NCBI RefSeq assembly: GCF_000738775.1
Contig: NZ_JPOC01000009.1
Span: 62,001-126,000 of the forward strand
Length of the DNA stretch: 64,000 nt
From: Prescottella defluvii
GTDB taxonomy: Bacteria > Actinomycetota > Actinomycetes > Mycobacteriales > Mycobacteriaceae
Direction of reading: 5' to 3'
Below are positions 36,581 through 63,449 of the stretch, piece by piece. The notes beneath the pieces were generated by a model. The model was not told where the DNA came from and did not search any database. It worked only from the letters and a program-made list of their open reading frames with translations. Position numbers and translations under genes: made by a program. Numbering within the stretch: position 1 is the first letter of the stretch; every line of letters begins with the position of its first letter.

Positions 36581-36591
36581 GAAAATCAATG

Positions 36592-36647
36592 TACCGGCTG
36601 GACGGTCAACTGCTACCCTGGTCGAGGTGCTATACCGGCTGGACGGT
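36592..36647. promoter_or_regulatory. Twin operators ACCG-N6-CGGT between tetR and MFS gene
   Basis: The 15-mer TACCGGCTGGACGGT occurs twice as a direct repeat (36592-36606 and 36633-36647), each containing the palindrome ACCGGCTGGACGGT. The spacing is 41 bases, close to four helical turns, so two TetR dimers could bind the same face and block both divergent promoters. Confidence 0.8.
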
Positions 36648-36699
36648 TCACCATCTGGTCGGTTTCCGTTCATCCGAGAAGAACGCGTGGGGAGAAGAG

Positions 36700-38856: not shown

Positions 38857-40251
38857 GTGAGTCAGACAATCACGCCGTCAAGCGAATCCGAGATGGGTGG
38901 GATTCCGGACACGCGCCGACTTGCCGGTCCGGTCGTGCCGCTCGTGGCCTATGTGGCGGTGGATATTTCGGTTCCGCTTCTCCTCGTGTGGCGCACACCC
39001 ATCGCATGGCCGGGCCTGCTCGCACTGGTTGTCGGATGCGTGGCCGTGTGGATCTGGACAGGCTTGTACCGGGTCCGATTCACACTGTCGGTACTGGACG
39101 ACTTCCCGATACTGCTGCTCGGGCTGGCCGGCGGTGCCGGTGCCGTGGTGGTGAGTGGGCGGGCGGTGACGGACGGCGAGCTTCCGGACGTGTCGGACAC
39201 TCTAGGACTCGTTGCGGCAGTTGCGGTCCTCGCACGAGCGATGCTGTACACCGTCGAGCGTCGTGCGAGGACCGCCGGTCGTCGCTGCGTCGGACGCGCT
39301 GTGATCATCGGTGACAGTCCGACGGGTCGCGAGCTCTCGGCTGCAATGAGCGCCCACCCCGCTCTTGGCGTGGTCCCGGTCGGGCGGGTGTCGGTGCCCG
39401 GCTCCAGTGAGGACGAGCGACTCCGCGAGAGCGCGACTCTCGGGTCGATCGACGAACTGGGCAGGGTCGTCCAGCTTTACGGCGTTTCTCACTTCTTCGT
39501 CGTGGGCATGGTCGACGAAGGCAGGCTCACCGATGTACTTCAAGTGGCCGGAGACTACGGCGTGCAGGTGTATCAGACGGACCGGTTCCGGCTGGCCAAG
39601 TGGCATCGAGCAGCTGGAAGTGACCAGCTGTGGGGCATTCCGGTTCGTGACATCACGCCGAGGCGCACTGATGGCGCAGCCTATGTGCTCAAGCGGCTCT
39701 TCGATTTCCTGGCCGCGTCGGCTGCGCTCGTCCTCCTGGCGCCGGTCATGGCGGTGGTGGCGTGCGCAGTGTGGTTCGAGACGCGAACGGTCATCTACCG
39801 TCAGGTGCGTATCGGCCGAAACAATCGGGAGTTCGTGCTCTACAAGTTCACATCGATGTTGCCTGTCCCCGAGGAGAATTCGGAATCCTTGTGGTCGATT
39901 GCGGAGGATCGTCGAATCGGTCCGGTCGGACGATTCATCAGGCGCACCTCGCTCGACGAACTCCCTCAGTTGGTCAACGTGATACGAGGGGATATGAGCG
40001 TCGTCGGGCCTCGCCCGGAGCGCCCGGAATTCGCCGAGCACTTCGCCCAGACCGTTCCCGGATACCGGTACCGACTCCGTGTCCCGGTGGGCTTGACGGG
40101 TTACGCCGCGGTGAACGGACTCCGCGGCGACACATCGATTCATGATCGCGCTGTGTTCGACAACGTCTACATCGCGAACTGGTCCCTGTGGCTCGACGCA
40201 AAGATCATTCTCCAGACCGTCATCAGTGTGTTCAGGGGACGAGGTGCCTGA
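38857..40251 (+). CDS. Polyprenyl-phosphate sugar-1-phosphate transferase (WbaP/CpsE-like)
   Basis: Starts repeat-unit synthesis by moving a sugar-1-phosphate onto undecaprenyl phosphate. N-terminal half: four or five spans and a CoA-binding-like domain (VIIGDSPTGRELSAAM). C-terminal catalytic half (from about residue 275): re-entrant helix KRLFDFLAASAALVLLAPVM, then YRQVRIGRNNREFVLYKF, RRTSLDELPQLVNV and GDMSVVGPRPERPEF, all typical of the bacterial sugar transferase family. 464 residues, GTG 38857. First gene of the locus, as expected for the priming enzyme. Confidence 0.9.
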   Translation: MSQTITPSSESEMGGIPDTRRLAGPVVPLVAYVAVDISVPLLLVWRTPIAWPGLLALVVGCVAVWIWTGLYRVRFTLSVLDDFPILLLGLAGGAGAVVVSGRAVTDGELPDVSDTLGLVAAVAVLARAMLYTVERRARTAGRRCVGRAVIIGDSPTGRELSAAMSAHPALGVVPVGRVSVPGSSEDERLRESATLGSIDELGRVVQLYGVSHFFVVGMVDEGRLTDVLQVAGDYGVQVYQTDRFRLAKWHRAAGSDQLWGIPVRDITPRRTDGAAYVLKRLFDFLAASAALVLLAPVMAVVACAVWFETRTVIYRQVRIGRNNREFVLYKFTSMLPVPEENSESLWSIAEDRRIGPVGRFIRRTSLDELPQLVNVIRGDMSVVGPRPERPEFAEHFAQTVPGYRYRLRVPVGLTGYAAVNGLRGDTSIHDRAVFDNVYIANWSLWLDAKIILQTVISVFRGRGA

Positions 40252-40252
40252 G

Positions 40253-42382
40253 ATGGAGTCGAATCCCGCGCCGCAACAGCTTCGTGTGCTGGCGCTCCAC
40301 CCGAGCGGAATGGTCGGCGGAGCCGAGATCTACCAACTGCTGTTGGCGGAAGCCACCGACCGAGTGCAATGGGACGCGGTGATTCTCGCTCCCGGCAGGT
40401 TGGCTTCCAGATGGAACAGTGCCGGCGGTAGCGCCCACGTGTTGCCCACTGGCACGGGGGTCGGCGAAATATCCAGGGCGGCAGCAAGGATGGTCGGTGC
40501 GGTCCGACGGTTGCGCCCCGACGTCATCGTTGCGCACGGCGTCAAAGCCGGGTTGATCGCGGTGCCGGCTCGGCTGTGGTTGGGCACCCCCGCCGTCTGG
40601 GTGCGTCACGACGACTCGTTCGCGCACACCTGGGCTCGCCTGGTGGGGCGTCTGCTCACCGGCGAGATCTCCACCTCGAAGAGGGTGTCCGTGTTCGGCC
40701 GATCTGCGCGTCGGGTCGTCGTCGAACCGCCGCGGCCGTCCCCGGCCGCTCGCTCCACGGTGGGTTCAGCGAACACGGTGCCGGGCGTCGGTTCCGCCGT
40801 CGGCGCGCACGGGGTGAGATCGACTCTCGTACTGGGTATGGGTGGCCGGTTGGTGCCGGAGAAGGGGTTCGAGGACGCGATCCGCGCGATAGCACTGTCG
40901 GCAGCAGGCGAACGACTCTGGGATCTGGTGATTTTCGGCATCGACGACCCCGCACATCCGGACGAACGAGCGCGACTGCACGCGTTGGTGCGCGAGCTCG
41001 GCGTGGACGAGCGTGTCTCGATCCATGCCGCGGTCGACGACTTCCCTTCGCGCGTGTACGGATTCGATGCGCTCGCCGTTCTCACCCGGACCACCAGGGG
41101 CTCCGACAGCACCGCGGAATGGTTCGGCATGGTGGCACTCGAGGCCATGTCGGCGGGCATCCCTGTCGTCTGTGTGGAGTCCGTAGGCGCCTGGGTGGGG
41201 GAGGGCGGACTCGTGGTCGCCGCATCCGATCCGTCCGATGTCGATCGTGCACTGCGTGCCCTCGAAGACCCGGAATTGCGTTCGCGGATCGGTCGAGCGG
41301 GCTTCCGTGCAGCTGCCGACCGTCTCGACGCGGCCGGCGCCTCGGACCTGTTCGTCGAATACCTGGCGTCTGTCGTCCATCGGCCGGGAATCGGCGTTGC
41401 CGGTACGGCTCGGCTGAGTGTCGTTGTCACGGTGCGCGACGAGGCTGCCACCATCGCGGTGCTGCTGCACGAGGTGATGAACCAGATGCGTCCGGATGAC
41501 GAGTTCGTCATCGTCGACGGCGGTTCTCGCGACGGCACCTGGGAGTATCTCGTCGACGAGGCGAGCCGAGACGAGAGGATCCGCCCGCTCCGTGCCGAAG
41601 GCGCTGGCATCTCCGCTGGTAGAAACCGTGGGATCGCTGCCGCACGCAACGAGCACATCGTCTGTACCGATGCCGGCTGTGTGCCGGCCGCGGGTTGGCT
41701 CGAGGCGTTTCGGTCTGCCATAGCGCAACATCCCGGCGACGGCCTGTGGACCGGTGTCTACGACGTGTCCGCAACCGGGGCGTTCCAACGTGCGTTGCGG
41801 GCCGTCGGTTATCCCGATCCACACGAACTGGCGGTACCGACGCCGTGGTCCGACCTGTACGGCAGGGTCCTCGGCCGCGTCTTCGACCCGGCTAGGCCGA
41901 CCGGCCGTTCGGTTGCGATGACCAGGGATGTCTGGGAAAGAGTCGGCGGATTCCGGGAGGACCTGCAGACCGGCGAGGACGTGCTGTTCGGGCAGCAGGC
42001 GGTGGCGTCCGGCGCGACACCGCGGCTGGTCCGCGATGCCGTTGTGCGCTGGGACCAGCGACCGACGCTTCGAGAGAACTTTCGGATGTACTACAGATAC
42101 GGCCTCGGTTCCGGGGCGTCACGCCGCGCCTCGCTGCTCGGCCGGGACCTGTTGAGGGCGTTCGCGTATCCGGCCGGAATCGCAGTTGCGCTGTCCGGGA
42201 ATCGCGGCGCTCAGGCCGGGGCGCTGGCTGCTGCCGCAGCCTACCTCTCCCTGCCCGTGCGCCGGGTGCTCCGGGAGCGAGGCGGAATCGCGACTTTGGC
42301 GCTGGTGCCGGCGGTCGCTGCCGGACGAGACCTGTCCAAAGCGGCCGGAGCTGTGGCCGGACTGGTGGGGCAGCGGGCATGA
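40253..42382 (+). CDS. Two-domain glycosyltransferase, GT4-like plus GT2-like fusion
   Basis: A 709-residue protein. The N-terminal part (about 1-380) is GT-B/GT4-like: HPSGMVGGAEIYQLLL, MGGRLVPEKGFEDAIRAI and a SAEWFGMVALEAMSAGIPVV donor-site block. From about residue 386 a GT-A/GT2 domain begins (LSVVVTVRDEAATIAVLL, FVIVDGGSRDGTW, DAGCVPAAGWLE). The C-terminal 100 residues are hydrophobic and may touch the membrane. It could add two successive sugars. GAGG lies eight bases before ATG 40253; it ends in an ATGA overlap with the kinase-like gene. Confidence 0.85.
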   Translation: MESNPAPQQLRVLALHPSGMVGGAEIYQLLLAEATDRVQWDAVILAPGRLASRWNSAGGSAHVLPTGTGVGEISRAAARMVGAVRRLRPDVIVAHGVKAGLIAVPARLWLGTPAVWVRHDDSFAHTWARLVGRLLTGEISTSKRVSVFGRSARRVVVEPPRPSPAARSTVGSANTVPGVGSAVGAHGVRSTLVLGMGGRLVPEKGFEDAIRAIALSAAGERLWDLVIFGIDDPAHPDERARLHALVRELGVDERVSIHAAVDDFPSRVYGFDALAVLTRTTRGSDSTAEWFGMVALEAMSAGIPVVCVESVGAWVGEGGLVVAASDPSDVDRALRALEDPELRSRIGRAGFRAAADRLDAAGASDLFVEYLASVVHRPGIGVAGTARLSVVVTVRDEAATIAVLLHEVMNQMRPDDEFVIVDGGSRDGTWEYLVDEASRDERIRPLRAEGAGISAGRNRGIAAARNEHIVCTDAGCVPAAGWLEAFRSAIAQHPGDGLWTGVYDVSATGAFQRALRAVGYPDPHELAVPTPWSDLYGRVLGRVFDPARPTGRSVAMTRDVWERVGGFREDLQTGEDVLFGQQAVASGATPRLVRDAVVRWDQRPTLRENFRMYYRYGLGSGASRRASLLGRDLLRAFAYPAGIAVALSGNRGAQAGALAAAAAYLSLPVRRVLRERGGIATLALVPAVAAGRDLSKAAGAVAGLVGQRA

Positions 42383-43125
42383 CCGTCCATTCGGAACCGG
42401 CTAGGAGAACGGTCACCCGTACAGGTCATGACGACGACTCCCGTCGCCGAAACCTTCTGGAGATGCGTGGCCGCGACTGGGCGACGGCTCACGGTATCCG
42501 CACGCCCTCGACCGTCGACTCCGACGGGGACGGATCGCTGCTGGTGAGCGAGTACGTGCCGTCGCTGTCGTCCTCGGGAGCGAACTACGTCGAGGCGGCG
42601 TTGGCGCTTGCGGGGATGGTCTCGGCTGCACCGGAACCCAGCTTCGGAATCTCCGCCTCGGGATGGCGGGCTCCCCGGACGTCGCTTCTCACCCGTGCGG
42701 CTCGACTGTGTGCGGCCGGTGTCGATCCGGTGGTCTTCGTCCGGGCACGGCGACGGGTGGCACGGATCCCTTCACAGGTGACCGTGCACGGTGACTTCCA
42801 CGTCGGCAACGTTCTCAACCTCGGCGACGGGGTCGTGTGCCTGCTGGACTTCGAGCACGCGGGACGCGGTCCTCGCCATGCCGATGCGCTGCGTTTGGTC
42901 ACCACGCTCGACAGGACCTCCGACGCAGAGTACGGGCTCGAACTGCTACTCCGCGCTGCCACCCGTGATGACCGCGGCACAATCGCGGACCAGCTGGAAT
43001 GGCTGGCGTTGCGGCACTTGGCCGATCTCGTCACCGGCCGAGTGAGCCGTTCGCGCGTGGACGCCGCGCACGCTCGGTGGCACTTGGCTCGACACTGGGC
43101 GCGAGATATTCGGAACATGTTGTGA
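42379..43125 (+). CDS. APH/choline-kinase-fold phosphotransferase
   Basis: A 248-residue protein with the small-molecule kinase signature HGDFHVGN (137-144, catalytic Asp139, Asn144) and metal-binding DFE (157-159, CLLDFEHAG). It is shorter than most APH enzymes and the N-lobe is reduced, with no obvious ATP-binding Lys, so activity needs confirmation. Within a polysaccharide operon it could phosphorylate a sugar or add a phospho-substituent. Overlaps both neighbours by 4 bases. Confidence 0.78.
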   Translation: MTVHSEPARRTVTRTGHDDDSRRRNLLEMRGRDWATAHGIRTPSTVDSDGDGSLLVSEYVPSLSSSGANYVEAALALAGMVSAAPEPSFGISASGWRAPRTSLLTRAARLCAAGVDPVVFVRARRRVARIPSQVTVHGDFHVGNVLNLGDGVVCLLDFEHAGRGPRHADALRLVTTLDRTSDAEYGLELLLRAATRDDRGTIADQLEWLALRHLADLVTGRVSRSRVDAAHARWHLARHWARDIRNML

Positions 43126-44624
43126 CGCTGAAGAAGAATCCGGTGGAGGTCTCGGCCACGTCGTCGAGTTCCCCGCACGGGCGCGCGCGCCACCTGGCGA
43201 CCGCCGTCGGGTCGTTGGCGACCGGGGAGGTCCTCGGCAAGGTGGCCACGTTGGTGACCTTCGCATGGTCCGCCCGCTTGCTCGGGCTCGATGAGTTCGG
43301 CCTGTTCACCTACGCCCTCGGCATCGGCACTCTCCTCGCGACCATTCCGTCGTTGGGTCTGGAAGCTCGGCTCATCCAACTGACCGGACGTGACCCTCGG
43401 TTGCTCAACGAGTACCTCGGTCCGCTGATGGTTGTGCGGCTGGTCCTGACGGTCGCGGCGTTCGGCGCCGCAGTGCCGTTCGTGCTGGCGAGAGATTCCA
43501 CGAGCGCTCGTCTCACGATCGTCCTGATGGTGTCGGCGGCCGTGATCGACGTCATGACCGACGCCCAGCGGTCGGCGTGTGTGGTCCTCGAACAACAGCA
43601 GGCGACGGCAGCGGTGACCGTCTTCCAACGAGCGCTCACGTTGGTGGCGGCGCTGGTGCTGTTGACAATTTCCCCGAGCACCGTGAGCCTCGCGGTGGCA
43701 TTCAACGTCGCCGGCCTCGCCGCGTGTACGGCCATGACCCTCCTGGCTCGTCGGCACGGGGCACGAACGGAGTTCCGCCGGGTCACCTGGGGGAAGACGA
43801 AGACCATCCTCCGGGCAGCACCGGTGATGGGGGTCAACGAGATCGTCGGTGAGGCGGTCACTCGTATCGATGTGATCCTCATCCAGATGATCCTGGGCGA
43901 TGCAGCCGTCGGCGTGTACGGCGTGGCCTACCGGCTGATGGAGACCGCGTTGTTCATCACGTGGTCGGTCGGGCACGCTCTCGCTCCCGACCTGGTCCGG
44001 GCCAAGGACCGCGACGCGTTGGGCAGGACCGTGGGTGTGGGTGTCGTGCTGATGTTCGTCGTCTATCTGCCGTACGGAGCAGTACTTGCCACTCGCGGTC
44101 AGGACTTGGTGGACCTTCTGTTCGGCAGCGGATATCAAGCCGGTGCGCTCTTGGTCTGCCTGGCGCCTGCACCGTTGGTGTTCGGGCTCGGTCAGCTCGC
44201 CAGGAAGGCCCTGTTCGCGCGCAGTCCGACGCCTGTGGTTCCGATCGCTACGGCGTTGGCCCTGGTGATCAACATTGCGATGAACTGGATGCTGCTGGCC
44301 AGTGGGGGTCTCGTCTGGGCCGCGATCGCGAAGACGACCGCCTACGCGGTCCAGATGTTCGTCATGTGGGCACTGCTCGTGACCGTGGCGCGCGTGCACG
44401 GCGTGGTTCGGGGAGTCGCGGTCGCGGTCGGGGCCACGGCCGTGTCTGTGCTGCTGCTGACGAGTGGTCTTCCACTGGTTCCTGCGCTGCTCTCCGCGGG
44501 TGCGGCCTACGGGCTCGTGTGGATACTTCTCACCCGCCGGTTCGATCCCGTTATGGCGCAGCGTATTCGAGTGCTGCGGGGCGGGCGGCACACAGACGGT
44601 CGGGAGCTCGAACATGCGGCGTAG
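43122..44624 (+). CDS. Wzx-type flippase (MOP superfamily)
   Basis: A 500-residue, 12-14-span membrane protein. The N-terminal ATGEVLGKVATLVTFAWSARLLGLDEFGLF is the polysaccharide-synthase/Wzx signature, and EAVTRIDVILIQMILGDAAVGVYGVAYRL is the matching second-lobe block. Flips the lipid-linked repeat unit to the outer face. GTG 43122 (GTGA overlap) begins MTLKKNP. Confidence 0.88.
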   Translation: MTLKKNPVEVSATSSSSPHGRARHLATAVGSLATGEVLGKVATLVTFAWSARLLGLDEFGLFTYALGIGTLLATIPSLGLEARLIQLTGRDPRLLNEYLGPLMVVRLVLTVAAFGAAVPFVLARDSTSARLTIVLMVSAAVIDVMTDAQRSACVVLEQQQATAAVTVFQRALTLVAALVLLTISPSTVSLAVAFNVAGLAACTAMTLLARRHGARTEFRRVTWGKTKTILRAAPVMGVNEIVGEAVTRIDVILIQMILGDAAVGVYGVAYRLMETALFITWSVGHALAPDLVRAKDRDALGRTVGVGVVLMFVVYLPYGAVLATRGQDLVDLLFGSGYQAGALLVCLAPAPLVFGLGQLARKALFARSPTPVVPIATALALVINIAMNWMLLASGGLVWAAIAKTTAYAVQMFVMWALLVTVARVHGVVRGVAVAVGATAVSVLLLTSGLPLVPALLSAGAAYGLVWILLTRRFDPVMAQRIRVLRGGRHTDGRELEHAA

Positions 44625-45954
44625 TGAACTGGGGGAGGTTACCGAGGAACAGCAGCAGGCGGGCGCTCCGCGTGAACCGGAAAGACCGTCGCCCATGTGG
44701 GCGGCATGCCGGACAGCCGTTCTACTTCTCCCGGTGGGTGGTGTGCCGGTATCGGGCGTCCCGTTGAACGCGATCGTCATCGTCTTCGCGATTCCTGTCG
44801 TGTTGACGGTCTTGTACGTCCTACGGGGAGGGCGCCCCGTGATCTCGGCGCCCGCAACAGGTCTGCTTCTGCTGTTCGGGGTGGCCCTGCTCGCCTCCGT
44901 CTTCGGGTCGGACGATCTGAGCAGGGCCCTGGAGCTGGTGTTCGTCACCTTCGCCGGCATCGGCTTCACAGTGGCGCTGACATTCTGTGTCGACTCCATC
45001 GACCGGATCCGCATTCTCTGCGGCGACCTGGTGCTGGCGCTCAGCGTGTGCGCCGTGTGGGCGATCGTCTCCATGCCCGACCTGGCGGTGCGGTTCGGTG
45101 GCGGTGCCATCGACGGGCGCGCCACCGGCCCGTTCTCGCAACCGAACGAGCTGGGTATCGCCTGCGCTGCCGGTCTGCCGATGGCCCTGGTGCTGTTCTG
45201 CCATGCCGACACGCGGAACCGTCGACTGCTCGCGGGATTCGAGATGCTGTTGCTGGCACTGGCACTCACCTTGAGCTTCTCCCGGGGGGGATGGGTCGCC
45301 GCGGTGTTCGGATGCGTCGCGGTGATCGTCGTCCTGCCGTCGGCCCGACGCACGGTGGCGGTGCTGGTACTGGCCGGGATCGCCGCGGTTGCATACGTGT
45401 CCGCACTGTCTCTGAGCCCGGGACCGGCGGGGCAGATGTCGACCACCGGCCTGGTGGTGGAGCGCTTGGGGAGCATCGGCCAAGTGTCCGAGAATCCGGA
45501 CGATCATCGCGCGGAGATCTGGGAGGAGTCGCTGCGTCAGATGGACGAGCACCCCGTGCTGGGGACTGGACCGGAGGGCTTCAGACGCAACGCGGAGAGC
45601 GGCGACGGACCGTTGGCGAGCATCCGGCCTCCACATCCACACAACATTTTCTTCTCGTATCTGAACGAGATCGGACTACTCGGAGTGATTCCTTTGTCGC
45701 TGTTCATCGGTCGTGCCCTCGGGAATGTGGGGAGAGTCGCGAGATCGGCAAGACGCGGGCCGTCGGCAGCAGCCGTGGCCGCCGTGATCTTCATGCCACT
45801 GGTCGGACTGTCGGTCATGCTGTTCCACGGCCTGGTCGACAACCCGTTGGCGAACCCGATGATCGCCTACACGTGGTGGACCCTTCTCGGGTTGGCCGGA
45901 CTCGGTGTATCGCTGTATCGCGGCCGGGACAGCGAAGGCGGGGCGCACGCATGA
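44614..45954 (+). CDS. Wzy/WaaL-family polymerase or O-antigen ligase
   Basis: A 446-residue membrane protein with about 11 spans and a large extracytoplasmic loop (about 275-345) containing RAEIWEESLRQMDEHPVLGTGPEGF and PHPHNIFFSYLNEIGLLG. The HN at the end of this loop is typical of the PF04932 Wzy_C group. It joins flipped repeat units or transfers the chain. ATG 44614 overlaps the flippase gene by 11 bases. Polymerase is more likely than ligase, because no other polymerase is present and an LCP protein follows. Confidence 0.85.
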   Translation: MRRSELGEVTEEQQQAGAPREPERPSPMWAACRTAVLLLPVGGVPVSGVPLNAIVIVFAIPVVLTVLYVLRGGRPVISAPATGLLLLFGVALLASVFGSDDLSRALELVFVTFAGIGFTVALTFCVDSIDRIRILCGDLVLALSVCAVWAIVSMPDLAVRFGGGAIDGRATGPFSQPNELGIACAAGLPMALVLFCHADTRNRRLLAGFEMLLLALALTLSFSRGGWVAAVFGCVAVIVVLPSARRTVAVLVLAGIAAVAYVSALSLSPGPAGQMSTTGLVVERLGSIGQVSENPDDHRAEIWEESLRQMDEHPVLGTGPEGFRRNAESGDGPLASIRPPHPHNIFFSYLNEIGLLGVIPLSLFIGRALGNVGRVARSARRGPSAAAVAAVIFMPLVGLSVMLFHGLVDNPLANPMIAYTWWTLLGLAGLGVSLYRGRDSEGGAHA

Positions 45955-46739
45955 CCGAGCGAACGAGAGAAGGGGTTCTGGGCTGGGCGCGACGCCACCC
46001 GCTGGCCCTGTCGTGTCTCGGGGGTGCCGTCGCCGTGATCCTTCTGGGCCTCGCCGTCATCATGGCCATGCCCACCACGTATCGGGCGACGTCGGTGCTC
46101 GCGGTGCGGGCTGCGCCTGAGACGCCGGTGTCCACCGATGCGCTCCGCCTGATCGCACACGAGTACGCCGTCCGGATCACCTCGTCGGAGTCGCTGAACG
46201 CTACGGCGCGCGACCTGGCGATCGATCCACGCGAGCTACGTTCGATGATCGAGGTCAAGACGGATGCGGACGCGACCGTGATCCGTGCCGTCGCCGAAAG
46301 CGAGGACGGACTCGAAGCGGTCGGCATCGCGAACCATCTTGCGCAGTCGGGTGTGCGACAGTCCTTCGACGACAGCGACGTGCGTGTCCAGATCATCTCG
46401 CTCGCCGGACTCGACGATGCGGCGACGGGGCCGCCACGGCTGACCTATCTACTGCTCTTGGTGGGCATGACGGTGACCCTGGCGGCCGCGCTCTGGTACG
46501 TCGTGAGCGGGCGCCGATCTGCGTCACCGGTTCCGGAGGAGATCGATTCCGCAGCGGACTTCTCGCCGGCACCTCCGTCTGAGCCGCCGTTGGTTTATCC
46601 GCCGTTGCTGCGTTCGGTGGACAACTGTGACACAGACGTTTTCGACGCGATACCGCGTACCTACCGCCCGGCGAACGACCGGACGCGGGCCGAACCGTTC
46701 TCGCGAGCCGTCCGATACTCCGAGGGGAAGGACTCGTGA
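45951..46739 (+). CDS. Wzz-like chain-length/co-polymerase protein
   Basis: A 262-residue protein with two spans (about 19-40 and 163-184) flanking an extracytoplasmic domain (MPTTYRATSVLAVRAAPETP...), the Wzz topology. There is no fused Walker-type tyrosine kinase domain. The C-terminal cytoplasmic tail (about 188-262) is Pro/Ser/Asp-rich with tyrosines (VYPP, TYRP, RYSEGKDS) that could be phosphorylated. ATGA overlap with the polymerase gene and GTGA overlap with the LCP gene. Confidence 0.8.
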   Translation: MTERTREGVLGWARRHPLALSCLGGAVAVILLGLAVIMAMPTTYRATSVLAVRAAPETPVSTDALRLIAHEYAVRITSSESLNATARDLAIDPRELRSMIEVKTDADATVIRAVAESEDGLEAVGIANHLAQSGVRQSFDDSDVRVQIISLAGLDDAATGPPRLTYLLLLVGMTVTLAAALWYVVSGRRSASPVPEEIDSAADFSPAPPSEPPLVYPPLLRSVDNCDTDVFDAIPRTYRPANDRTRAEPFSRAVRYSEGKDS

Positions 46740-47809
46740 TGCCGTCGGTGGAGACGGCCCCGACGGTGACGGACGAGCACCGGTCCTCGCGTCGAGACCG
46801 CCGCCGCAGACGCAGCCTTCGAAAGACGGTGACGCGACTCCTGCTCGCGACAGCACTGATCCTGACGCTGTTCGTCGGGGGCGCGGTGGCATTGATCCAT
46901 CACTGGCTCGCCGAGATCGAACGGATTCCGGGGGTTTTCGCCGACCTCCAGGAGTCGGCCCGGCCGCCGACAGTGACCGATGGCGGTCAGACCACGTTCC
47001 TGCTCATGGGGTTGGACGTCCGGGCAGACGACGCCACCACCGGATCCGATGCGGCAGAATCGAACAGTGGTAGTCGCGCCGACGCAATGATGGTCGTGGC
47101 CCTGCAGGACGACGGTTCGGGAGTGCGGGTCGTATCCGTACCCCGTGACAGCTGGGTCGAGATCCCGCGGCACGGGATGGACAAACTGAATGCCGCGCAC
47201 GCCTACGGTGGTCCGTCGTTGCTGGTCGAGACGGTCGAAAGGATCACCGGTGTGCGGATCGATCACGTCGCCACGGTCGACTTCCGCGGGTTCGCGGCAC
47301 TGACGGATGCTGTCGGCGGTATCTCCGTGGAAGTTGCCGGTGACACCGCGAACTGGGGGCACGAGTTCACCGAGGGGAAGAACTTCCTCGATGGCGAGCG
47401 GGCGCTCTGGTACATCCGACAACGCATGGATCTACCGGGCGGCGATCTCGATCGCGTCCAGCGTCATCAGAACTTTCTGCGGGCGATGATGGACACTCTG
47501 TCCAGTCCCGGTACGTATCGTTCGCCCCAACAGGTGAAGAACGTCGTACAGGCTGTAACGCGGAACATCAGTCTGGATGCGGGGCTGGATGATTCGAGTC
47601 TGCTGGGCTTGGCGCAAGTACTGCGACGGACCGATCGGGAGAGCTTCGAGTTCTTCACCGCCCCCGTGTCCGGGACCGGACTGGAAGGGGATCGGAGCGT
47701 GGTCTACCTAGATGTGGATCGAGGCGCCGAGTTCTGGCGGGCAGTCGCTCACGGTGACCCGATCACCCCCGGCCTTGGTGCGAAAACCCTTCCAGCCGTA
47801 ACGAAGTGA
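46736..47809 (+). CDS. LytR-CpsA-Psr (LCP) glycopolymer ligase
   Basis: A 357-residue protein with an Arg-rich cytoplasmic N-terminus (RDRRRRRSLRK), one span (about 35-55) and an extracytoplasmic LCP domain. The blocks LLMGLDVR, RADAMMVVALQ, VSVPRDSWVEIP, KLNAAHAYGG and a late DLDRVQRHQ provide the Asp/Arg residues that bind pyrophosphate and metal. LCP enzymes attach lipid-linked polymers to peptidoglycan (arabinogalactan in mycolata, capsule elsewhere). Here it probably anchors the locus's polysaccharide to the wall. GTG 46736. Confidence 0.9.
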   Translation: MMPSVETAPTVTDEHRSSRRDRRRRRSLRKTVTRLLLATALILTLFVGGAVALIHHWLAEIERIPGVFADLQESARPPTVTDGGQTTFLLMGLDVRADDATTGSDAAESNSGSRADAMMVVALQDDGSGVRVVSVPRDSWVEIPRHGMDKLNAAHAYGGPSLLVETVERITGVRIDHVATVDFRGFAALTDAVGGISVEVAGDTANWGHEFTEGKNFLDGERALWYIRQRMDLPGGDLDRVQRHQNFLRAMMDTLSSPGTYRSPQQVKNVVQAVTRNISLDAGLDDSSLLGLAQVLRRTDRESFEFFTAPVSGTGLEGDRSVVYLDVDRGAEFWRAVAHGDPITPGLGAKTLPAVTK

Positions 47810-47818
47810 TCGAGAACA

Positions 47819-49987
47819 ATGAACTCGGACGTCATGCGACCCGGTCGACCCGGTCGAAGATCCTCATTCGGTGACCCGGTGCCGATGCGTGCTCGCCTCG
47901 CCGGAGTCGCGGGGCGAACGGCCGCACGCGTTTCCCGCCTCACCGGTCGGGGCCGTGGGTCGACCGTCGGAGGCCGCGTCGCCCTCGCCATCGATCCCGC
48001 TGCCCTGCGCCGCCTCGGCGGATGGCGGACGACGGTTGCCATCGTCGGGACGAACGGCAAGACCACCACGAACCTTCTCGTCACTGCCGCGCTGTCGGCG
48101 GTCGCGCCGGTCGCAGCCAATGTGCGGGGGTCCAACAAGCGGCACGGAATCGTCGCCGCACTCGTCGACGCGCCGCTCGCGCCGTTCGCGTCGATCGAGA
48201 TCGCCGAAGGTGATGCTCCGTCCACGATCGCGGAACTCGAGCCCGATGTCGTCATCGCGCTCAACCTCAGTCACGAACAGCTGGATCGAGCCGACGAGCT
48301 TCGATCGGTGGAACAGGCACTGCGCGAATCATTTTCGCGTCTCCCCGAAGCGACTGTGGTAGCGAACTGCGACGACGTCGACATCGTGTCCGCGGCCCGG
48401 GACGCCCACAAGGTGATCTGGGTGGCCTGCGGTGCTCCCCGCGTCGATCGGGCCGTCGGTTGCCCGCGCTGCGGAGGTCTGATCGAGTGGGCCACGACCG
48501 GCACCGCCGGACTCGCAACGTGGTCGTGTACCCACTGCGTGCTTACCCGGCCCGCACCCGACTGGACGATCGAAGGCCGGACCCTCTCCGGACCCGGCGG
48601 GGTGAATGCGAGGGTGGACAGCAGGTTGCCCGGCCGCGCCAATCTCGGCAACGCCGCCCAGGCGGTCGCTGCAGCAGTGGCGCTGGGAGTGGATCCACTA
48701 GAGGCCGTTCGCGGCGTGTCGTCGGTGGACAGCGTCGCCGGACGGTATCGAGTTGCCGAATGGGGTGAGCACCTCGTACGTCCGATGATGGCCAAGAACC
48801 CGGTCGGTGCGGAGGAATGCCTGTCTGTGGCGGCGACGGACGGTGCCGCTGTGGTCGTGGCGGTGAACGGGCGCGCGGCCGACGGCCGGGATCCGTCGTG
48901 GCTCTGGGATGTCGACTACTCCAGCCTGAGCGGGGAACAGGGGGCTTCCGCACCGCCGCCGACGGTGATCGTTTCCGGCGATCGCGCGGCGGATCTGTCC
49001 CTGCGCCTGTTCCATGCCGGGGTCGACCACGAATTGGAAGGTGATGTGGCCGCGGCGATTCGGCGGTGCCCAGCCGGCCGAGTGGACGTTCTGGCCGATT
49101 ACACGGTGATGGAAGAGCTGATCGGGGTTCTCGACACCGAGCCCGCAGCGGTCACCGAGACCGCGGGCGCCGGGGGCTGCAGACCGCCCGACCGGGACGT
49201 CCCCGTCGTTCGATCCAGACCGTGTGACAGGAACGCCGGGAACGGTGCGTCCACGGTGCGAATCGGCCTGGTGCTTCCGGCCGTCCTCGGAGCCGGCGGC
49301 TACAGCGGGAACGCCGTCGTCCTCCGAGATCGTCTCCGCCGCCGAGGCCTGAGCGCGGTGATCGTCCCCACCACTCTCGACGATCCGGCGCCCTCTGCTT
49401 TGGACATCTATGTCGTCGGGGGGCCGCTCCGAGAGGAATTGGTGCTCGCTTGCGGCGTTCTGCGCCGGCACGGTGGGATGTCCGCTGCTGTCGAGCGGGG
49501 GGCTCCGGTGCTCGCGGCGGGCGGAGGACTGCACATCCTGGCCAGTCGATTCGCATTGCCGAACGACAGCTCGTCCACGGGCCTCGGCCTTCTCGACTGC
49601 CACACGGAGTCGGCCAGCACCGCGGACTTCCCCGCCTTGCGGCAAGTGGTCGCGCGCCCCCTCGTCGACGGACTGACCGACCCCGTGATCGGGTTCGAGA
49701 ACCCAGGGATCCGTACGATTCTCGGCAAAGACGCGGCACCGTTCGCCGAGATCGAGCCCGGAGCCCCTCGCGCGTCGGAGCACACGTGTCTCGGTCGGGA
49801 GGGCGCCGTGCAGGGTTCCGTTGTCGGCACCCTTCTCCACGGTCCGGTTCTGGCCTACAACCCGCAGCTAGCCGATCTGCTGTGTGCACGCGCGCTCGGT
49901 CTGTCCCGAGTGGAAGAACTCCCGGCCCTGAATCTGTCGCCTACCTCCCGCGTCCGCGTCGAGCAACTACGGCGGCCGAGCTCGTGA
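47819..49987 (+). CDS. MurT-GatD-like fusion with degenerate glutaminase site
   Basis: A 722-residue fusion. Residues 1-about 460 are MurT-like: Mur-ligase P-loop GTNGKTTTN (77-85), a four-Cys zinc ribbon (Cys215, 218, 237, 240) and the MurT C-terminal domain with AKNPVGAEECL and WLWDVDYSSL (Asp364/366). From about 484 a GatD-like class I amidotransferase domain follows (RIGLVLPAVLGAGGYSGNA). MurT and GatD, normally two proteins, amidate the lipid II glutamate. Here the nucleophile position, usually VLAxCGG, reads VLAAGGG (Gly568), whereas the His is kept (LLHGP, His674). Glutamine hydrolysis is therefore doubtful. Its location points to a polysaccharide-linked role. Confidence 0.85.
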   Translation: MNSDVMRPGRPGRRSSFGDPVPMRARLAGVAGRTAARVSRLTGRGRGSTVGGRVALAIDPAALRRLGGWRTTVAIVGTNGKTTTNLLVTAALSAVAPVAANVRGSNKRHGIVAALVDAPLAPFASIEIAEGDAPSTIAELEPDVVIALNLSHEQLDRADELRSVEQALRESFSRLPEATVVANCDDVDIVSAARDAHKVIWVACGAPRVDRAVGCPRCGGLIEWATTGTAGLATWSCTHCVLTRPAPDWTIEGRTLSGPGGVNARVDSRLPGRANLGNAAQAVAAAVALGVDPLEAVRGVSSVDSVAGRYRVAEWGEHLVRPMMAKNPVGAEECLSVAATDGAAVVVAVNGRAADGRDPSWLWDVDYSSLSGEQGASAPPPTVIVSGDRAADLSLRLFHAGVDHELEGDVAAAIRRCPAGRVDVLADYTVMEELIGVLDTEPAAVTETAGAGGCRPPDRDVPVVRSRPCDRNAGNGASTVRIGLVLPAVLGAGGYSGNAVVLRDRLRRRGLSAVIVPTTLDDPAPSALDIYVVGGPLREELVLACGVLRRHGGMSAAVERGAPVLAAGGGLHILASRFALPNDSSSTGLGLLDCHTESASTADFPALRQVVARPLVDGLTDPVIGFENPGIRTILGKDAAPFAEIEPGAPRASEHTCLGREGAVQGSVVGTLLHGPVLAYNPQLADLLCARALGLSRVEELPALNLSPTSRVRVEQLRRPSS

Positions 49988-51174
49988 CGTCGGCGGACGG
50001 ACGGTCCCTGCGGGTACTCCACGTCGCCCAGCCCACGACCGCCGGCGTCGCCGCGGTCGTCGCCCAGTACGTCTCCTCGCTGATGGATTCGTCCCGGGAA
50101 TCTCGTCGCCGATTCACGGTTGCGGTGGCCTGCCCGACGGACGGTCACCTGCACACCGACATCGTGACGGCGGGGGCCGAACACCTTCCGTGGTCTGCGA
50201 ACCGTAGTCCCGGTGTGGGAGTGCTCGGTGAATCACGAGATCTGGCGAGAACGGTACGTCGCTGGAGGCCGGACGTGATCCACCTGCACAGCGCAAAGGC
50301 CGGACTCGCGGGACGGCTGGCCGTGCGGGAGCGGATTCCCACAGTGTACCAACCCCATGCCTGGTCGTTCCAGGCTGCCCGGGGTGTCACCGCGGCCGCC
50401 GCCGTCCGGTGGGAGCGGGCCGCGAACCGCTGGACCACGCTGACGGTGAACGTGGGTGGGCACGAGCGACGCGTCGGCGAAGTTCAGGGGATCGCCGGTC
50501 CGTTCCATCTGGTGTCGAATCGGGTCGACGTCGCGGAGTGGGGTCCCGATGATCGGGGAGAAGCGCGGCGTCTGCTCGACATGCCCACGGATGTTGCGGT
50601 AGCTGTGTGTGTTGCTCGCCTGTGTGAACAGAAGGGGCAGGACCGCCTGGTCGCGATCTGGGACCGGGTGCGTGCCGCAGTTCCGGGTGCACTGTTGTAC
50701 CTGGTGGGACCCGATCAAGGCGATTCGAATCTTCCTCGGCCGTTGCCGGAAGGAGTTGTCCACGTCGGTGCAGCGGTGCCCAGGCGGTGGTACGCGGCGG
50801 CCGATGCCGTGGTGATGGCTTCCAGGTGGGAAGGGTTACCGATGGTGGCCCTCGAGGCCGAGGCGGCAGGCCGTGTCGTGGTGGCGACCGAGGAAGCAGG
50901 TGCGTCCGGATTTCTCGATCCGGTGGACGAGGTGGCCGGCACGGACCTGGATGCACTGGCGTCGAGGGTGATCCATCGCTTGGCCGATCGCGGAGAATCC
51001 GCTCGGGTGGGTGAACTGGCCCGTTTGCGCGCCGAGAAACGACCAGGGCTCCGTTTACTCTCCGTGGAGTTGGGTGAGTTGTATGATCGCGCTATGCGGC
51101 CTGAATATTCCCCTGGAATATGGGAATCCAGGCGGCATACAGATCCACCGCTGCAAAATCCGTTATCCGGATGA
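49984..51174 (+). CDS. GT4-family glycosyltransferase
   Basis: A 396-residue GT-B enzyme. The N-terminal acceptor domain begins LRVLHVAQPTTAGVAAVVAQ, and HLHSAKAGLAGRLA is the usual second block. The C-terminal donor domain has VARLCEQKGQDRLVAIWDRV and a SRWEGLPMVALEAEAAGRVV block with the conserved ExxxxxxE donor-binding pair. It probably adds an internal sugar of the repeat unit. GTG 49984 overlaps the MurT-GatD stop (GTGA). Confidence 0.87.
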   Translation: MTSADGRSLRVLHVAQPTTAGVAAVVAQYVSSLMDSSRESRRRFTVAVACPTDGHLHTDIVTAGAEHLPWSANRSPGVGVLGESRDLARTVRRWRPDVIHLHSAKAGLAGRLAVRERIPTVYQPHAWSFQAARGVTAAAAVRWERAANRWTTLTVNVGGHERRVGEVQGIAGPFHLVSNRVDVAEWGPDDRGEARRLLDMPTDVAVAVCVARLCEQKGQDRLVAIWDRVRAAVPGALLYLVGPDQGDSNLPRPLPEGVVHVGAAVPRRWYAAADAVVMASRWEGLPMVALEAEAAGRVVVATEEAGASGFLDPVDEVAGTDLDALASRVIHRLADRGESARVGELARLRAEKRPGLRLLSVELGELYDRAMRPEYSPGIWESRRHTDPPLQNPLSG

Positions 51175-51200
51175 CTGACGCTGTGTGCGAGGTGGCGCGG

Positions 51201-52280
51201 ATGAAGAAGATGCGACGTATTCGGAATCGTTCTGTGCTTGCTCTGGGTGGGGTCCTCGCTCTCGGCGCACTGAGTGTCGCGATGGCGGACAAGGATCCGG
51301 GGTTTCCGGAGGTGGGAGCCCAGTATCACGGTTTTTGGAACTATGAGGACGAACAGACGGCGAGCCAGGCGTTGTATTCGCTTCGCTCTGCAGGTGGGCG
51401 GAGTGTCCGCGTCGACATGGGCTGGAAGACCGTAGAGCCGGTTCAGGGCGAATACGCCGCGTGGGCGCTGGCCAAGTACGACAAATCCATCGATCTGGCG
51501 CATTCTGTCGGATTGGATGTACTTCTCACAATTCAGGATTCGCCGGAATGGGCGAATAATGGTCGATCGAAGCAGTCTTCGCCGAAGGACCCGAACGATT
51601 TTGCGAAGTTCGCCAGGAGTATGGCAGAAAGATATTCCGGTAAGGTGAGCGCAATCGAGGTTTGGAACGAACCAAATAATCCCGACTTCTTTGTTGCACA
51701 GCAGGAAGGCCGGGAGGCTGAAGAATATGTGAAAATGCTGCGGGCCACCCACGAGGCTGTCGAGGGCTCTCGCGTGGGGAACAAAATGGCTGTGGTTGCC
51801 GGTGGCTCGCAGTATGTGGACGACCGATGGTGGGACGCACTGCTCCGGGGCGGTGCCTGTTCGTCCACGGATGCGATCACGGTCAACCCGTATCAGTTGC
51901 CGTCGGATGCCGGGCCGGATCGGCCGGATGACGGTGTCGGGTCTCTGCGGCATCTCGATGTTCTGGAAGCCGTGCTCGATGCCAACGGTTGTTCGGACAA
52001 GTCGATCTGGTTCACCGAATTCGGATGGTCCACGCACGGCGAGTCGCCGGCCTCCAAGCCGTGGGCTCGAGGGGTCACCGAAGACGCTCAGGCCGAATAT
52101 CTGACCACGACACTGAGAATCGTCAAGGACGAGTATCCCCGCGTGGATCGCGTGTACTGGTACAACCTGCGAGATCGAGGGTCCGAAGCTTCCGTGCAGA
52201 ACGGCAACTATGGACTCCTACGGCGGGATCTGTCGGAGAAGCCCGCGCTGATCCATCTGAGGGACATCCTCACTTCGTAG
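51201..52280 (+). CDS. Exported clan GH-A glycoside hydrolase
   Basis: A 359-residue TIM-barrel glycosidase with a signal peptide or anchor (MKKMRRIRNRSVLALGGVLALGALSVAMA). Acid/base Glu157 is in VWNEPN (155-159) and nucleophile Glu273 in FTEFGWST, the GH-A arrangement seen in GH5/GH39. GAGG lies eight bases before ATG 51201; longer frames start inside the previous gene. It probably cuts the locus's polysaccharide during export or turnover, like PslG in the Psl system. It carries more A/T-ending codons (aat, aga, ttt) than its neighbours, which hints at a different origin. Confidence 0.82.
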   Translation: MKKMRRIRNRSVLALGGVLALGALSVAMADKDPGFPEVGAQYHGFWNYEDEQTASQALYSLRSAGGRSVRVDMGWKTVEPVQGEYAAWALAKYDKSIDLAHSVGLDVLLTIQDSPEWANNGRSKQSSPKDPNDFAKFARSMAERYSGKVSAIEVWNEPNNPDFFVAQQEGREAEEYVKMLRATHEAVEGSRVGNKMAVVAGGSQYVDDRWWDALLRGGACSSTDAITVNPYQLPSDAGPDRPDDGVGSLRHLDVLEAVLDANGCSDKSIWFTEFGWSTHGESPASKPWARGVTEDAQAEYLTTTLRIVKDEYPRVDRVYWYNLRDRGSEASVQNGNYGLLRRDLSEKPALIHLRDILTS

Positions 52281-53083
52281 CGGGACGTGAGCCAGGTCGC
52301 GTGTTCGGCGGCGCCGTCCAGCGGTGGAAGATATTCGGGATCGCTCGCTTGCTGCGGTAGTGCCAGAAAATTCACCGTTCAGGGTCGGCACGTCGCAGGG
52401 GATCGGGCCGCGCCTGTGCCGGCGACATGCTCGGAGCATTTCGTCGCGACCTGGTACCGGCGTCACATCAAATTCCTTGCAGGGCAGTGGTGTACGTCAC
52501 TCGGGCATGCTGAAGTGAGTGACGACACCGCCGCTGCGGCGACTTTGCTGTCGTGAAAGTGTGCGCGCCTGTCCAAACGAACGGCCGACGAAGTTAGACG
52601 GGCGACCAGTACGTTAGGGTGATTTCGGGGGTGAAGTTTCCGCCTGGTCGCGGGTGCTTCGCGGTTCGCTCCGATCTCGCTCGATTCGGCTCAATCACTC
52701 TGTAGTGCAACATTTTTGTCAGAATGTCTGAGGTCGCCTGCGGTCCGAAAGTCCGAAATCAAACGTTGGTTCGTCTCAGCGCGTGTGCCCTCCGAGCGTG
52801 TATATGGATGGTTGTCCAACTTGCGCCGTTCAGTGGAAGGGATCGAATGGCAAGCCTTGCGGCCGCGTCGCGCGTTGCCCGAAGACTGCTCGCCGGTCAC
52901 ATCGTCGACATCCGAACTTGCGCGCACCCCGGTGGCGCCGCCCGGGGGTAGTTGCGAGCCGTTCCCGGTCCTCGAACGGGTCACCGGAGTGGTGCGGGCC
53001 TGATCTCGAGAACCCTGCGCGCCAGGTCGGTGAACTCCGCCATGTCCACAAGAACATTTGTGTGTGTAACGAAAGGTAAAACC
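52281..53083 (+). other. 803-base gene-free region ahead of the adhesin gene
   Basis: No convincing gene is seen on either strand. It is less GC-rich than average and holds the hairpin at 52522-52554, a direct repeat GTCCGAAAGTCCGAAA at about 52743-52759 and a GAAAGG at 53071-53076 before the adhesin ATG. It must contain the 3' end of the exopolysaccharide transcript and the adhesin promoter, and may give a long 5' leader. Confidence 0.5.
52522..52554. terminator. Nested hairpin, possible end of the exopolysaccharide operon
   Basis: Outer arms ACGACA (52522-52527) and TGTCGT (52549-52554) enclose CGCCGC-T-GCGGCG (52529-52541). It is about 240 bases past the last gene of the operon, so it might instead be part of the adhesin promoter region. 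Confidence 0.4.
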
Positions 53084-56000
53084 ATGCGTAACCGTGTCTT
53101 CCTTCGCCGTGCCGAAGAGGGGGTGGTGTCTCGGTGGGCGGCGCTGGGGTTACTTTTCATGGCCCTCACCCTGGTCTGGACGTCCTTCGCACTAGCCCCG
53201 GTTGCTTCGGCGGACCCGGGCGAGACCACGACGACCAGTCCGGCCACCTCGACGACGACGGCGCCCCGCGCGTCCACGACCACGCCGACGGCGCCGGTCA
53301 CGACCACGACGAAGGCTCCGGCGACCACGACCAAGGCTCCGGCCGCCACGACGTCCGAGTCGCCCGTGACCACGACGAAGGCTCCGGCCACCTCGACGTC
53401 CGAGTCGCCCGCGACCACAACCACGACGACGGCCCCCGCGACAGAGAAGCGGGAAGCAAAGGCCGCCACCCCTCGTGGACTGAACCCGGACATCCAGGTG
53501 AAGATCACCGACGTCCAGGTCGAGGGGAAGAACGGCGAGCAGATCACCGTCGGCGATTCCGTCTCGGTGAAGGGCACGTGGGACGCCTCGCAGGCCGACC
53601 CGCAGCCGGGCGACGAGTTCACGGTTCAGTTTCCCAAGGAGCTGAAGATCCCGGCAAACCAGCCGGTCGAACTCAAGGGCGGTGGCGTCGTCTGGGGCGA
53701 ATGCAAGCTTGTGGCCGCCACCAACCTCATGACCTGCGTGCTCACGGACGCTGTGCTGGAGAACCCCGAGGAGGTGCGCGGCACGTTCGAGGTCTTCGTC
53801 AGGGCGGTCCAGTACACCGAGTCCAAGGACGTCGACTTCACGATCAACAATGAGCTGAACCAAGAGGTCCCGCTGCCCGGTGGCGGCGGTATCGGCGACG
53901 GTCAGAACCTCGGCGATGTGAAGAAGGTGGGCAAGCTCCAGTCTGACAAGCAGGCCGTGCGCTGGACCATCGACATCCCCGGCTCCGATCTGATTGCTCG
54001 GGATCCGGCGGGCACCGGCAAGGTGACGCTGAGCGACACGCTCTCGGAGACCATGAAGCTGTGCGGCGACGGCCGTCTGAACGCCACGCTGGCGTCCGGT
54101 CGCCCGAACGACCTCAAGCCGGTCGCGAGCGGCGTCTCCATCACCCAGGCCGAGGCGGGCGAGCCCGTCAGCATCGCGATCGACAACGGCAAGGCCTTCG
54201 AGGCGAACAAGCTCTACCGCATCGAATACACCTCGTGCACCTCCAGCGGCGTGGTGGACCCCAAGGACACGCAGTACACCAACTCCATCGACGTGGGCAA
54301 GGGCGCGAGCGCTGGCGTCGGGCAGGACTGGACGCCGGACACCAAGGCGAAGAAGTCCGGCAGCTGGGTCGGCGGCTCGCGCTACAACGAGATTGCTTGG
54401 ACCATCATGGTCCCGGGCAGCGTCATCGCAGCCAACGAGCACAAGGTGGCCATCGCGGAGACCCTTGGTGATGGGCACGAGGTTTGCGTGAGTGGCCTTG
54501 ATGTGAAGATCAAGAAGTCCAACTACCTGCCCGGCGCGGACGGCAAGGCCCCCGCGAGGACCGACGCCAGCGGCCAGTTCACGATCACGAACACGGCGAA
54601 GGCGGGCGAGCAGTCGTTCGACATCAACTTCGAGGTGAAGGACAAGAGGTCCTTCGACGCGGAGCAGTACTACTACGTCGAGTTCCGGAGCTGCCTCGCC
54701 GACAAGGCCGTGCCGGATGACAAGAACGTCTTCGCCAACGACGCGAAGGTCAACGGCGTGGACGTCGACGCGTCGGTGAAGGGTCCCGGCTTCAGCGGCA
54801 AGAAGACCGGCAATCTCAACACCGTCCCGAAGGACGTCGCCGGCGAGGCGCAGCCTGCCGGCACCACCATCGACTGGAAGGTGGAGGTCCCCGGACGCCA
54901 CCTCGAGGGGCTCACGGAGCCGGCGGTCCTCTCGGACAAGTTCTCCGACACCCTGACGGTGTGCGAGGTCACCGGTGATCTGAAGAAGGACCTCAACTTC
55001 AAGGTCATCGCGAAGGACTTCCTCGGCAACAACCCCGCCAACCCGGAGCGCGACCTGACGGCCGCCACCGTGGTGACGCGCACCGCCGGCGGCATCGACA
55101 TCACGCTCCCGAAGGACGCGGCCAAGGGCGACTACAGCCGCGAGACTCGGTACTTCATCGAGTACACGCTCTGCACCACCAGCGGCGGCGTGGACGATCG
55201 CGGCACCGGCTACAGCAACACGCTCTCCTACACGGGTGACAGGGAGCTCTCGCACGGCGTCACGCAGCAGTGGGGCGGCAGCGGCACCGGTGAAGGCGTT
55301 TCGCGCGGCTCGTTCTCGCTGCTGAAGAAGGCCGACCAGTTCTCTGAGGAGTTCCCGGAGGACACCGAGTTCACGGTGAAGGTCGAGGAGTTCGCACCCG
55401 GGAAGACTCCGGGCGTCGATCCGGCGAGCAGCACCTACGAGATCAAGGTGAAGGCGGATGGCACGCCCGTCAGCGGCGTCAACAACCGCGGCAACGGCTG
55501 GCAGATCCGGCTGACCGAGATCAACCTGCCCACGGTTCCCGGTGTCGCCTTCGAGCCGGGCAAGTTCGCGCCGGCCGAGGGCGTGACGCTCAACGCGGAC
55601 CGCTCCGAGGCGGTCGTGGCGATCACGCCGAAGACCAACGTCGCCGTCGAGCTCGTCAACAAGGCGGTGCTGGGCTCGGCGAAGATCACCAAGACCGTCG
55701 TCAGCGAGCCGGGTGTGACGCTGACCGGCAATGAGGTCTTCGAGTTCAAGGCGGAGATCGATCTCGGCGACGGATCGGGTAACGAGACGCGCGCGTTCAC
55801 GCTGAAGAACGGCCAGTTCCGTAACCTGGACAAGCTGCCGATCGGCGCGAAGGTCACCATCACCGAGGTGCAGCCGACGAACACCGACCTCATCACCTGG
55901 TCGGAGCCGAAGTTCGAGGCCAGCAATACGCTGACCATCGGCAAGGACGCGGCGGCGAACACCATCTCCGTCACCAACGAGGCCAAGGTCACCCAGGGCA

Positions 56001-63159: not shown

Positions 63160-63449
63160 GGTGAAACGGTCTCCTTGTCGGGGGATTCGGGGCATCGACT
63201 CGCCGCCCGTGCATGTTTCGGGTAGGGCTGCTAGGTTCGCACGTGCGCCCCAGATGGGCCTACACCGGAGGTAGTGGTTTCACGCTCGAGTCATTCGGCG
63301 ACTCAGTGTTCCGTGCACCCTGCACCTACCTCCGAGGTTGCTCGATTCCTCCCCGGTAGGTCGTCAACGCGTGGGCGGTGCGCTTCTTCGGTGTTGTCTC
63401 GCGTTGAACCACATCCTCGGCTACCGATCAACCGAGAGGTCATCGCACG

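Follow-up and report, generated by a model that had tools for sequence, protein, structure and literature searches.

In the 64,000-nucleotide stretch of Prescottella defluvii DNA that we analysed (the window), a MurT-like Mur ligase and a GatD-like domain are encoded as a single chain of 722 residues. At the level of sequence, the two halves are fused, glutaminase residues are lost from the GatD half, nucleotide-site residues are retained in the MurT half, the gene sits within a polysaccharide operon, and a canonical murT-gatD pair is present elsewhere in the genome. We tentatively propose, with slightly less than even confidence, that this diverged single-chain paralogue could be a glutamine-independent amide ligase that keeps its dead GatD half as a scaffold; we infer the activity, the nitrogen source, the acceptor and the scaffold role that this proposal would entail. 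A Cys-less fused paralogue of this sort is a variant of a known enzyme, and fusion alone is not new.

Architecture of the fused gene and its canonical counterpart

The gene and its parts are as follows.

47819..49987, + strand: fused MurT-GatD-like gene, a single ORF with an ATG start (722 aa)
47885..49138, + strand: MurT ligase half, residues 23-440 (Pfam, alignments, AlphaFold model, match to MurT chains)
48047..48070, + strand: P-loop GTNGKTTT, residues 77-84, with K81 and T82 equivalent to S. aureus MurT K59 and T60
48461..48538, + strand: zinc-ribbon segment with C215, C218, C237 and C240
49139..49252, + strand: low-confidence linker between the halves, about residues 441-478 (pLDDT <50 at 445-475)
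49253..49984, + strand: GatD-like half with eroded glutaminase site, residues 479-722 (Pfam, alignments, model, conservation counts)
49520..49522, + strand: codon GGC for Gly568, replacing the catalytic Cys (S. aureus GatD C94; alignment)
49838..49840, + strand: codon for His674, kept (S. aureus GatD H189; alignment)

The first-pass annotation had described one 722-residue chain encoding MurT and GatD between an LCP ligase and a glycosyltransferase, with the P-loop, zinc ribbon and MurT C-terminal domain in place, and this description stands. Pfam recognised Mur_ligase_M (residues 76-196), MurT_C (325-431) and GATase_3 (506-680) in that order, each above its cut-off, and all four ribbon cysteines are present. 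The ATG lies 9 bases after the stop of the upstream LCP gene, and a GT4 gene follows downstream. The NCBIfam models for MurT (128.5 of 800 bits) and GatD (34.1 of 400 bits) both matched far under their curated equivalog cut-offs. In an AlphaFold model of the 722-aa chain, both halves were confidently folded (pLDDT 86.6, pTM 0.87) and matched MurT chains and GatD chains, respectively, with Gly568 placed at the strand-helix (nucleophile) elbow. The composition of the three codon positions was coding-like in both halves (GC1/2/3 of 0.742/0.560/0.770 and 0.762/0.533/0.779).

MurT_C occurs twice in the assembly. The second copy, on another contig, belongs to the separate canonical pair whose presence the first-pass annotation had proposed checking, with a MurT of 418 aa and, overlapping it downstream, a GatD of 250 aa that carries the catalytic Cys in the motif VLAICAAIQVLG. 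The fusion is 43% (MurT) and 46% (GatD) identical to this pair, and the canonical MurT is itself 84.5% identical over 439 residues to Rhodococcus globerulus MurT, among the matches listed. As the canonical pair is present, it probably already takes care of lipid II amidation.

Residues lost and kept in the two halves

The sequences extracted for alignment came from 59 loci with MurT and 58 with GatD. The column of residue 568 holds Cys in 58/58 other aligned GatDs and Gly in the fusion, and no Cys elsewhere in the fusion aligns with the nucleophile column, which confirmed the reported loss of the nucleophile. The canonical motif had been given as VLAxCGG and needs correction, as it is mostly [VI]LAxCA[AG] in the rows shown. 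In S. aureus GatD, Cys94 and His189 are reported to be catalytic and Arg128 to capture glutamine (PMC5871853). Only the histidine of these three has a kept equivalent in the fusion, namely His674, as had been noted; Arg128 corresponds to Pro605, an assignment made less sure by a gap nearby in the alignment. Two further S. aureus residues, Y17 and D19, are replaced by Gly493 and Tyr495.

We counted conserved positions after dropping rows whose coverage of the query half was no more than 80% and rows at least 85% alike to a kept row, which left 43 MurTs and 40 GatDs. The GatD half keeps 36/54 of the positions conserved in the 40 ordinary GatDs, and 18/54 are changed. All 40 ordinary GatDs keep more than the fusion, the lowest being S. 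aureus with 43/54, in a comparison that favours the ordinary rows because they help define the conserved positions; S. aureus GatD keeps 38/49 when excluded from its own reference. The other changed positions include E537, D538, Q541, A569, Q572, G575 and G583, followed by G608, H629, G631, G650, N651, Y672 and P703. The best reading of these alignments is that the glutaminase site has been lost and that the GatD half would no longer hydrolyse glutamine.

We considered whether the Gly codon or the fusion itself could be a sequencing or assembly artefact, or the contig a contaminant, in view of the draft state of the genome (265 contigs). A sequencing error at the Gly codon is unlikely, since the loss extends beyond one Cys to 18 conserved GatD positions. 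The contig is the host's, as its flanks match those of sibling genomes (13 on the left at 81-87% and seven on the right at 70-78%, among the matches listed), and the 43-46% identity to the organism's own pair rules out a copy error. An artefact is therefore very improbable.

The ligase half presents a different balance of kept and changed residues. Counted on the alignment with S. aureus MurT, residues K59, T60, E108, N267 and D349 correspond to K81, T82, E127, N278 and D358 of the fusion, and all five are kept, including the four of the nucleotide site (K59, T60, E108, N267). Mutation of T60, E108, N267 or D349 is reported to abolish or severely cut the activity of S. aureus MurT (PMC6113224). 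The fusion thus combines a lost glutaminase nucleophile with kept synthetase nucleotide-site residues, a combination that an ammonia-dependent amidotransferase with a pseudo-glutaminase domain would show. The DGRDPSWLWD segment, which contains the D349 equivalent, is also kept, and the Cys4 zinc ribbon is complete in the fusion, although P. defluvii has lost it from its canonical MurT. The ribbon cysteines are lost in 7/8 of the same-family MurTs shown (L001, L005, L033, L035, L036, L063, L068), and the remaining one, L039, keeps all four, as do the fusion, the Streptomyces-type L041 and S. aureus.

Overall, the ligase half keeps 63/72 positions conserved in ordinary pairs (87.5%), the nine losses being T85N, D129A, L147A, R152H, D153E, D211R, L324M, A329V and W331A. 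Fifteen ordinary MurTs with a comparable mean identity (0.40-0.45) keep more, 90-99%, and five of six remoter ones keep less. With either of the two strictest cut-offs (41/47 and 46/53), all 43 ordinary MurTs score higher than the ligase half, indicating some excess change in this half too. The difference in retention between the two halves gave Fisher p values of 0.0045 to 0.0135 over four cut-offs, which serve as a guide only because positions are not independent.

At positions 107-109, 129, 131 and 132, the fusion departs from residues that at least 95% of a set of 37 MurTs, mostly from the same family, have in common. Amino acids are the usual substrates of Mur ligases, and these changes, together with the intact nucleotide site, would suit a true Mur-type peptide ligase that couples an amino acid or an amino sugar, and not ammonia, to a polymer carboxylate, with the GatD half as a remnant. 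We regard this as rather unlikely, as the fusion keeps the DGRDPSWLWD segment (including the D349 equivalent) as well as the zinc ribbon, features that go with a GatD partner.

Operon setting, rarity and origin

The fusion is gene 8 of a plus-strand series that forms a Wzx/Wzy/LCP operon of ~14 kb, the other members of which are listed here.

38857..40251, + strand: polyprenyl glycosylphosphotransferase (Bac_transf), start of the operon (Pfam, NCBIfam)
40142..42382, + strand: two-domain glycosyltransferase, GT4 + GT2 (Pfam)
42379..43125, + strand: APH-fold phosphotransferase (Pfam)
42999..44624, + strand: Wzx-type flippase, Polysacc_synt (Pfam, sibling and family searches)
44464..45954, + strand: Wzy-type polymerase / O-antigen ligase family (Pfam)
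45981..46739, + strand: small membrane protein, Wzz-like by eye only; the 3' part of an ORF (44697-46739) that has no Pfam match, start unsettled
46736..47809, + strand: LCP (LytR-CpsA-Psr) glycopolymer transferase (Pfam, NCBIfam)
49988..51174, + strand: GT4 glycosyltransferase (Pfam), true start unsettled, ORF open from 49450
51120..52280, + strand: GH5-like glycoside hydrolase with a signal-like N-terminus by eye (Pfam)

Pfam and NCBIfam profiles revealed none in the operon that would modify a polymer with uronic acid, pyruvate or lactyl groups, a point against the proposal above. Outside the operon lie an MFS efflux pump at 36589-38214, whose nearest models are LfrA and QepA (under their cut-offs), a large DUF5979-repeat protein that also has a Big_8 domain, directly downstream at 52952-57820, and TerD plus a TerF-type vWA protein at 61837-63195 on the minus strand.

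The ~14-kb operon was not found in 13 sibling genomes, judged from the DNA matches listed. Among those matches, all 13 siblings align with the left flank up to ~38.2 kb at 81-87%, seven align with the right flank at 70-78%, starting at ~52.45 kb in the closest sibling and at ~53.1 kb in most others, and the interior of the island gives only short matches, including pieces of the canonical murT-gatD. The interval separating the MFS gene from the DUF5979 protein (window 38.2-52.4 kb) is variable in siblings G002-G008, where it is occupied by different DNA that measures from ~1.3 kb in G008 to 6 kb in G005, among the matches listed. The island Wzx had no match in the 13 siblings or on plasmids, nor, at E 1e-30, in 300 further genomes of the family, and the island LCP matched plasmids only at <60%. 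Third-position GC was 0.67-0.80 in the operon genes versus 0.86-0.90 in four flanking genes. The absence from siblings, the lack of a Wzx match and the lower third-position GC fit a surface-polymer locus that was horizontally acquired or is fast-changing.

Only one sequence of the fused, Cys-less kind is known. The murT-gatD pair is present in all 14 genomes of the genus, and the fusion only in that of P. defluvii. A MurT_C search (E 1e-8) of 296 genomes sampled from the class found the domain in 152, and only this genome had two matches, with no second MurT in the other 151. Strict protein searches found no second example of the fusion in samples of the family (401), order (397) and class (394), which overlap and are not summed; their E limits, from 1e-110 to 1e-112, were strict enough to miss a copy that had diverged further, a gap that the MurT_C search of 296 genomes does not share. 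Five genomes of the genus with the closest MurT gave no second example either, and no relative was present among 58 stretches of viral contigs or among 20 stretches from a genome-contig search with the fusion protein alone; matches in 14 plasmid and 6 phage records were all under 60% identity. We noticed no MurT-GatD in a polysaccharide locus in the parts of the open-licence literature available to us.

Several candidates were rejected. Apparent full-length relatives from the family search (G020, G372, G143, G327, G285, G370) and the class search (G801, G1051) were ordinary pairs in separate frames, the match having run through a stop. Of the long open MurT frames (up to 893 aa), nine were read, L041 and L090 among them, and 9/9 have MurT and GatD in separate frames; in L098, GatD is cut at the contig end. 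Elsewhere, Aldersonia sp. (L135:9962-14933) has its best GatD-like frame ~3 kb from MurT rather than adjoining it, and two sibling genomes carry an extra gatD, truncated at its N-terminus, close to the normal gene (L032 in G011, and G013:C20:143838-144323), that of L032 being a 217-aa frame that keeps the Cys, a partial duplication.

The earlier statement that MurT and GatD are normally two proteins holds for most cases and not for all, which also rules out the fusion itself as a novelty: among the matches listed, 6/80 named loci have both in one frame. These loci (L137, L149, L157, L171, L173, L176) are Acidimicrobiia-like, and their hosts are Aciditerrimonas ferrireducens, one Acidimicrobiaceae MAG and four 'Actinomycetes bacterium' MAGs. 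Like the Prescottella protein, they are single chains with MurT followed by GatD, with linkers of varying length; unlike it, they keep the catalytic Cys, as do 79/79 GatDs of the 80 named loci listed (one locus yielded no GatD). They also differ in tree position and in surroundings, as phmmer matched none of eight island proteins to the examined flanks of the six fusions, the positive control being self-matches only.

A tree built from 45 joined MurT-GatD rows groups the fusion with 22 family pairs (100/100) but outside all of them (92/89), on a branch of 1.32 compared with a median of 0.19. Quick per-half trees, the only ones to include the six Acidimicrobiia-like fusions, put both halves with Mycobacteriaceae pairs and those six elsewhere, so that a shared origin of fusion was not recovered, with the query long-branched. 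Its exact placement is unsure because of long branches, and the simplest reading would be a separate fusion event in a member of the family or its stem.

The long branch, the occurrence in a single genome and the excess loss of conserved positions, partly in the ligase half, are also what a decaying or non-functional gene might display, that is, a duplicated or transferred pair that lost its murT stop and is drifting. An open frame running for 722 codons within a tightly packed operon speaks against decay, though weakly in GC-rich DNA, as do the coding-like codon-position composition of both halves, the kept nucleotide-site motifs and the confident fold. We consider decay unlikely, yet it stays a serious rival, given that only one sequence exists. 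The specialised paralogue suggested in the first-pass annotation gains support from the retained canonical pair, the status of this genome as the only one with a second MurT among 152 MurT-bearing genomes, the stronger erosion of the glutaminase half and the Wzx/Wzy/LCP setting.

Proposed activity and implications

Under our preferred reading of a glutamine-independent amide ligase, the Mur-ligase half would use ATP to activate a carboxylate as an acyl phosphate and convert it to an amide, with free ammonia or some other small amine as the nitrogen source. The GatD half would not hydrolyse glutamine and may be kept as the covalent scaffold that MurT needs for activity. The acceptor would most likely be a carboxylate on the lipid-linked repeat unit that the operon around the gene assembles, for example a uronic acid, a pyruvate ketal or a lactyl ether, and less likely lipid II. 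The earlier idea that a uronic acid or the lipid II stem is modified at the site of polysaccharide attachment is speculative. Rhodococcus polysaccharides are reported to carry glucuronate, pyruvate and lactic ethers (PMC12786566), a comparison suggested by the 84.5% MurT match, among those listed.

The S. aureus enzyme offers a laboratory parallel. Its GatD C94G mutant, with the very substitution seen in the fusion, is reported to lose glutamine-dependent activity with NH3-dependent amidation at pH 8.5 unaffected, and MurT or GatD alone was insufficient (PMC3266927); GatD is reported to be needed even when ammonia is supplied (PMC6085368). Given the C94G result and the dependence of MurT on its partner, a non-glutamine nitrogen source with the GatD half retained would be an economical mechanism. 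The use of free ammonia, as suggested earlier, or of another amine is strengthened by this analogy and is plausible. Against it, the S. aureus enzyme used ammonia only at pH 8.5 and not at neutral pH (PMC3266927). C94G is a man-made change in an otherwise normal GatD, whereas the fusion has lost several more site residues.

A dead glutaminase site beside an LCP gene could also suggest a pseudo-enzyme with a regulatory or scaffolding role, which would bind either the canonical pair or lipid-linked precursors and control how the lipid carrier is shared by polymer and peptidoglycan. The kept ATP-site residues argue against such a role, which we consider quite improbable.

Compared with the MurT-GatD lipid II isoglutaminyl synthase of S. 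aureus, S. pneumoniae and mycobacteria, the fusion shares domain content and order, both folds, the nucleotide-site residues, the Cys4 ribbon and the D349 and His189 equivalents. It differs in being one chain, in having lost the glutaminase residues, in being a second copy within a polysaccharide operon and in scoring below the NCBIfam equivalog cut-offs. Human CPS1 likewise has a fused inactive glutaminase domain (Cys to Ser) in an ammonia user, as proposed for the fusion, but belongs to an unrelated synthetase family with another reaction (PMC4655335). The archaeal MurT-like protein is described as a MurT relative working without a glutaminase; it differs in its pseudomurein context and in the reported lack of a GatD homologue in MurT-like-only species (PMC11915815).

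A bolder version, which we regard as unlikely, is that this is the first MurT-GatD recruited off peptidoglycan, where it would cap carboxylates of Wzx/Wzy repeat units before LCP transfer, with the GatD half as scaffold and ammonia entry. If active, the fusion would represent a natural equivalent of the laboratory mutant GatD C94G and would provide a way to ask what GatD gives MurT besides ammonia. Activity would also mean that the Mur-ligase/GatD scaffold can move to capsule or exopolysaccharide chemistry.
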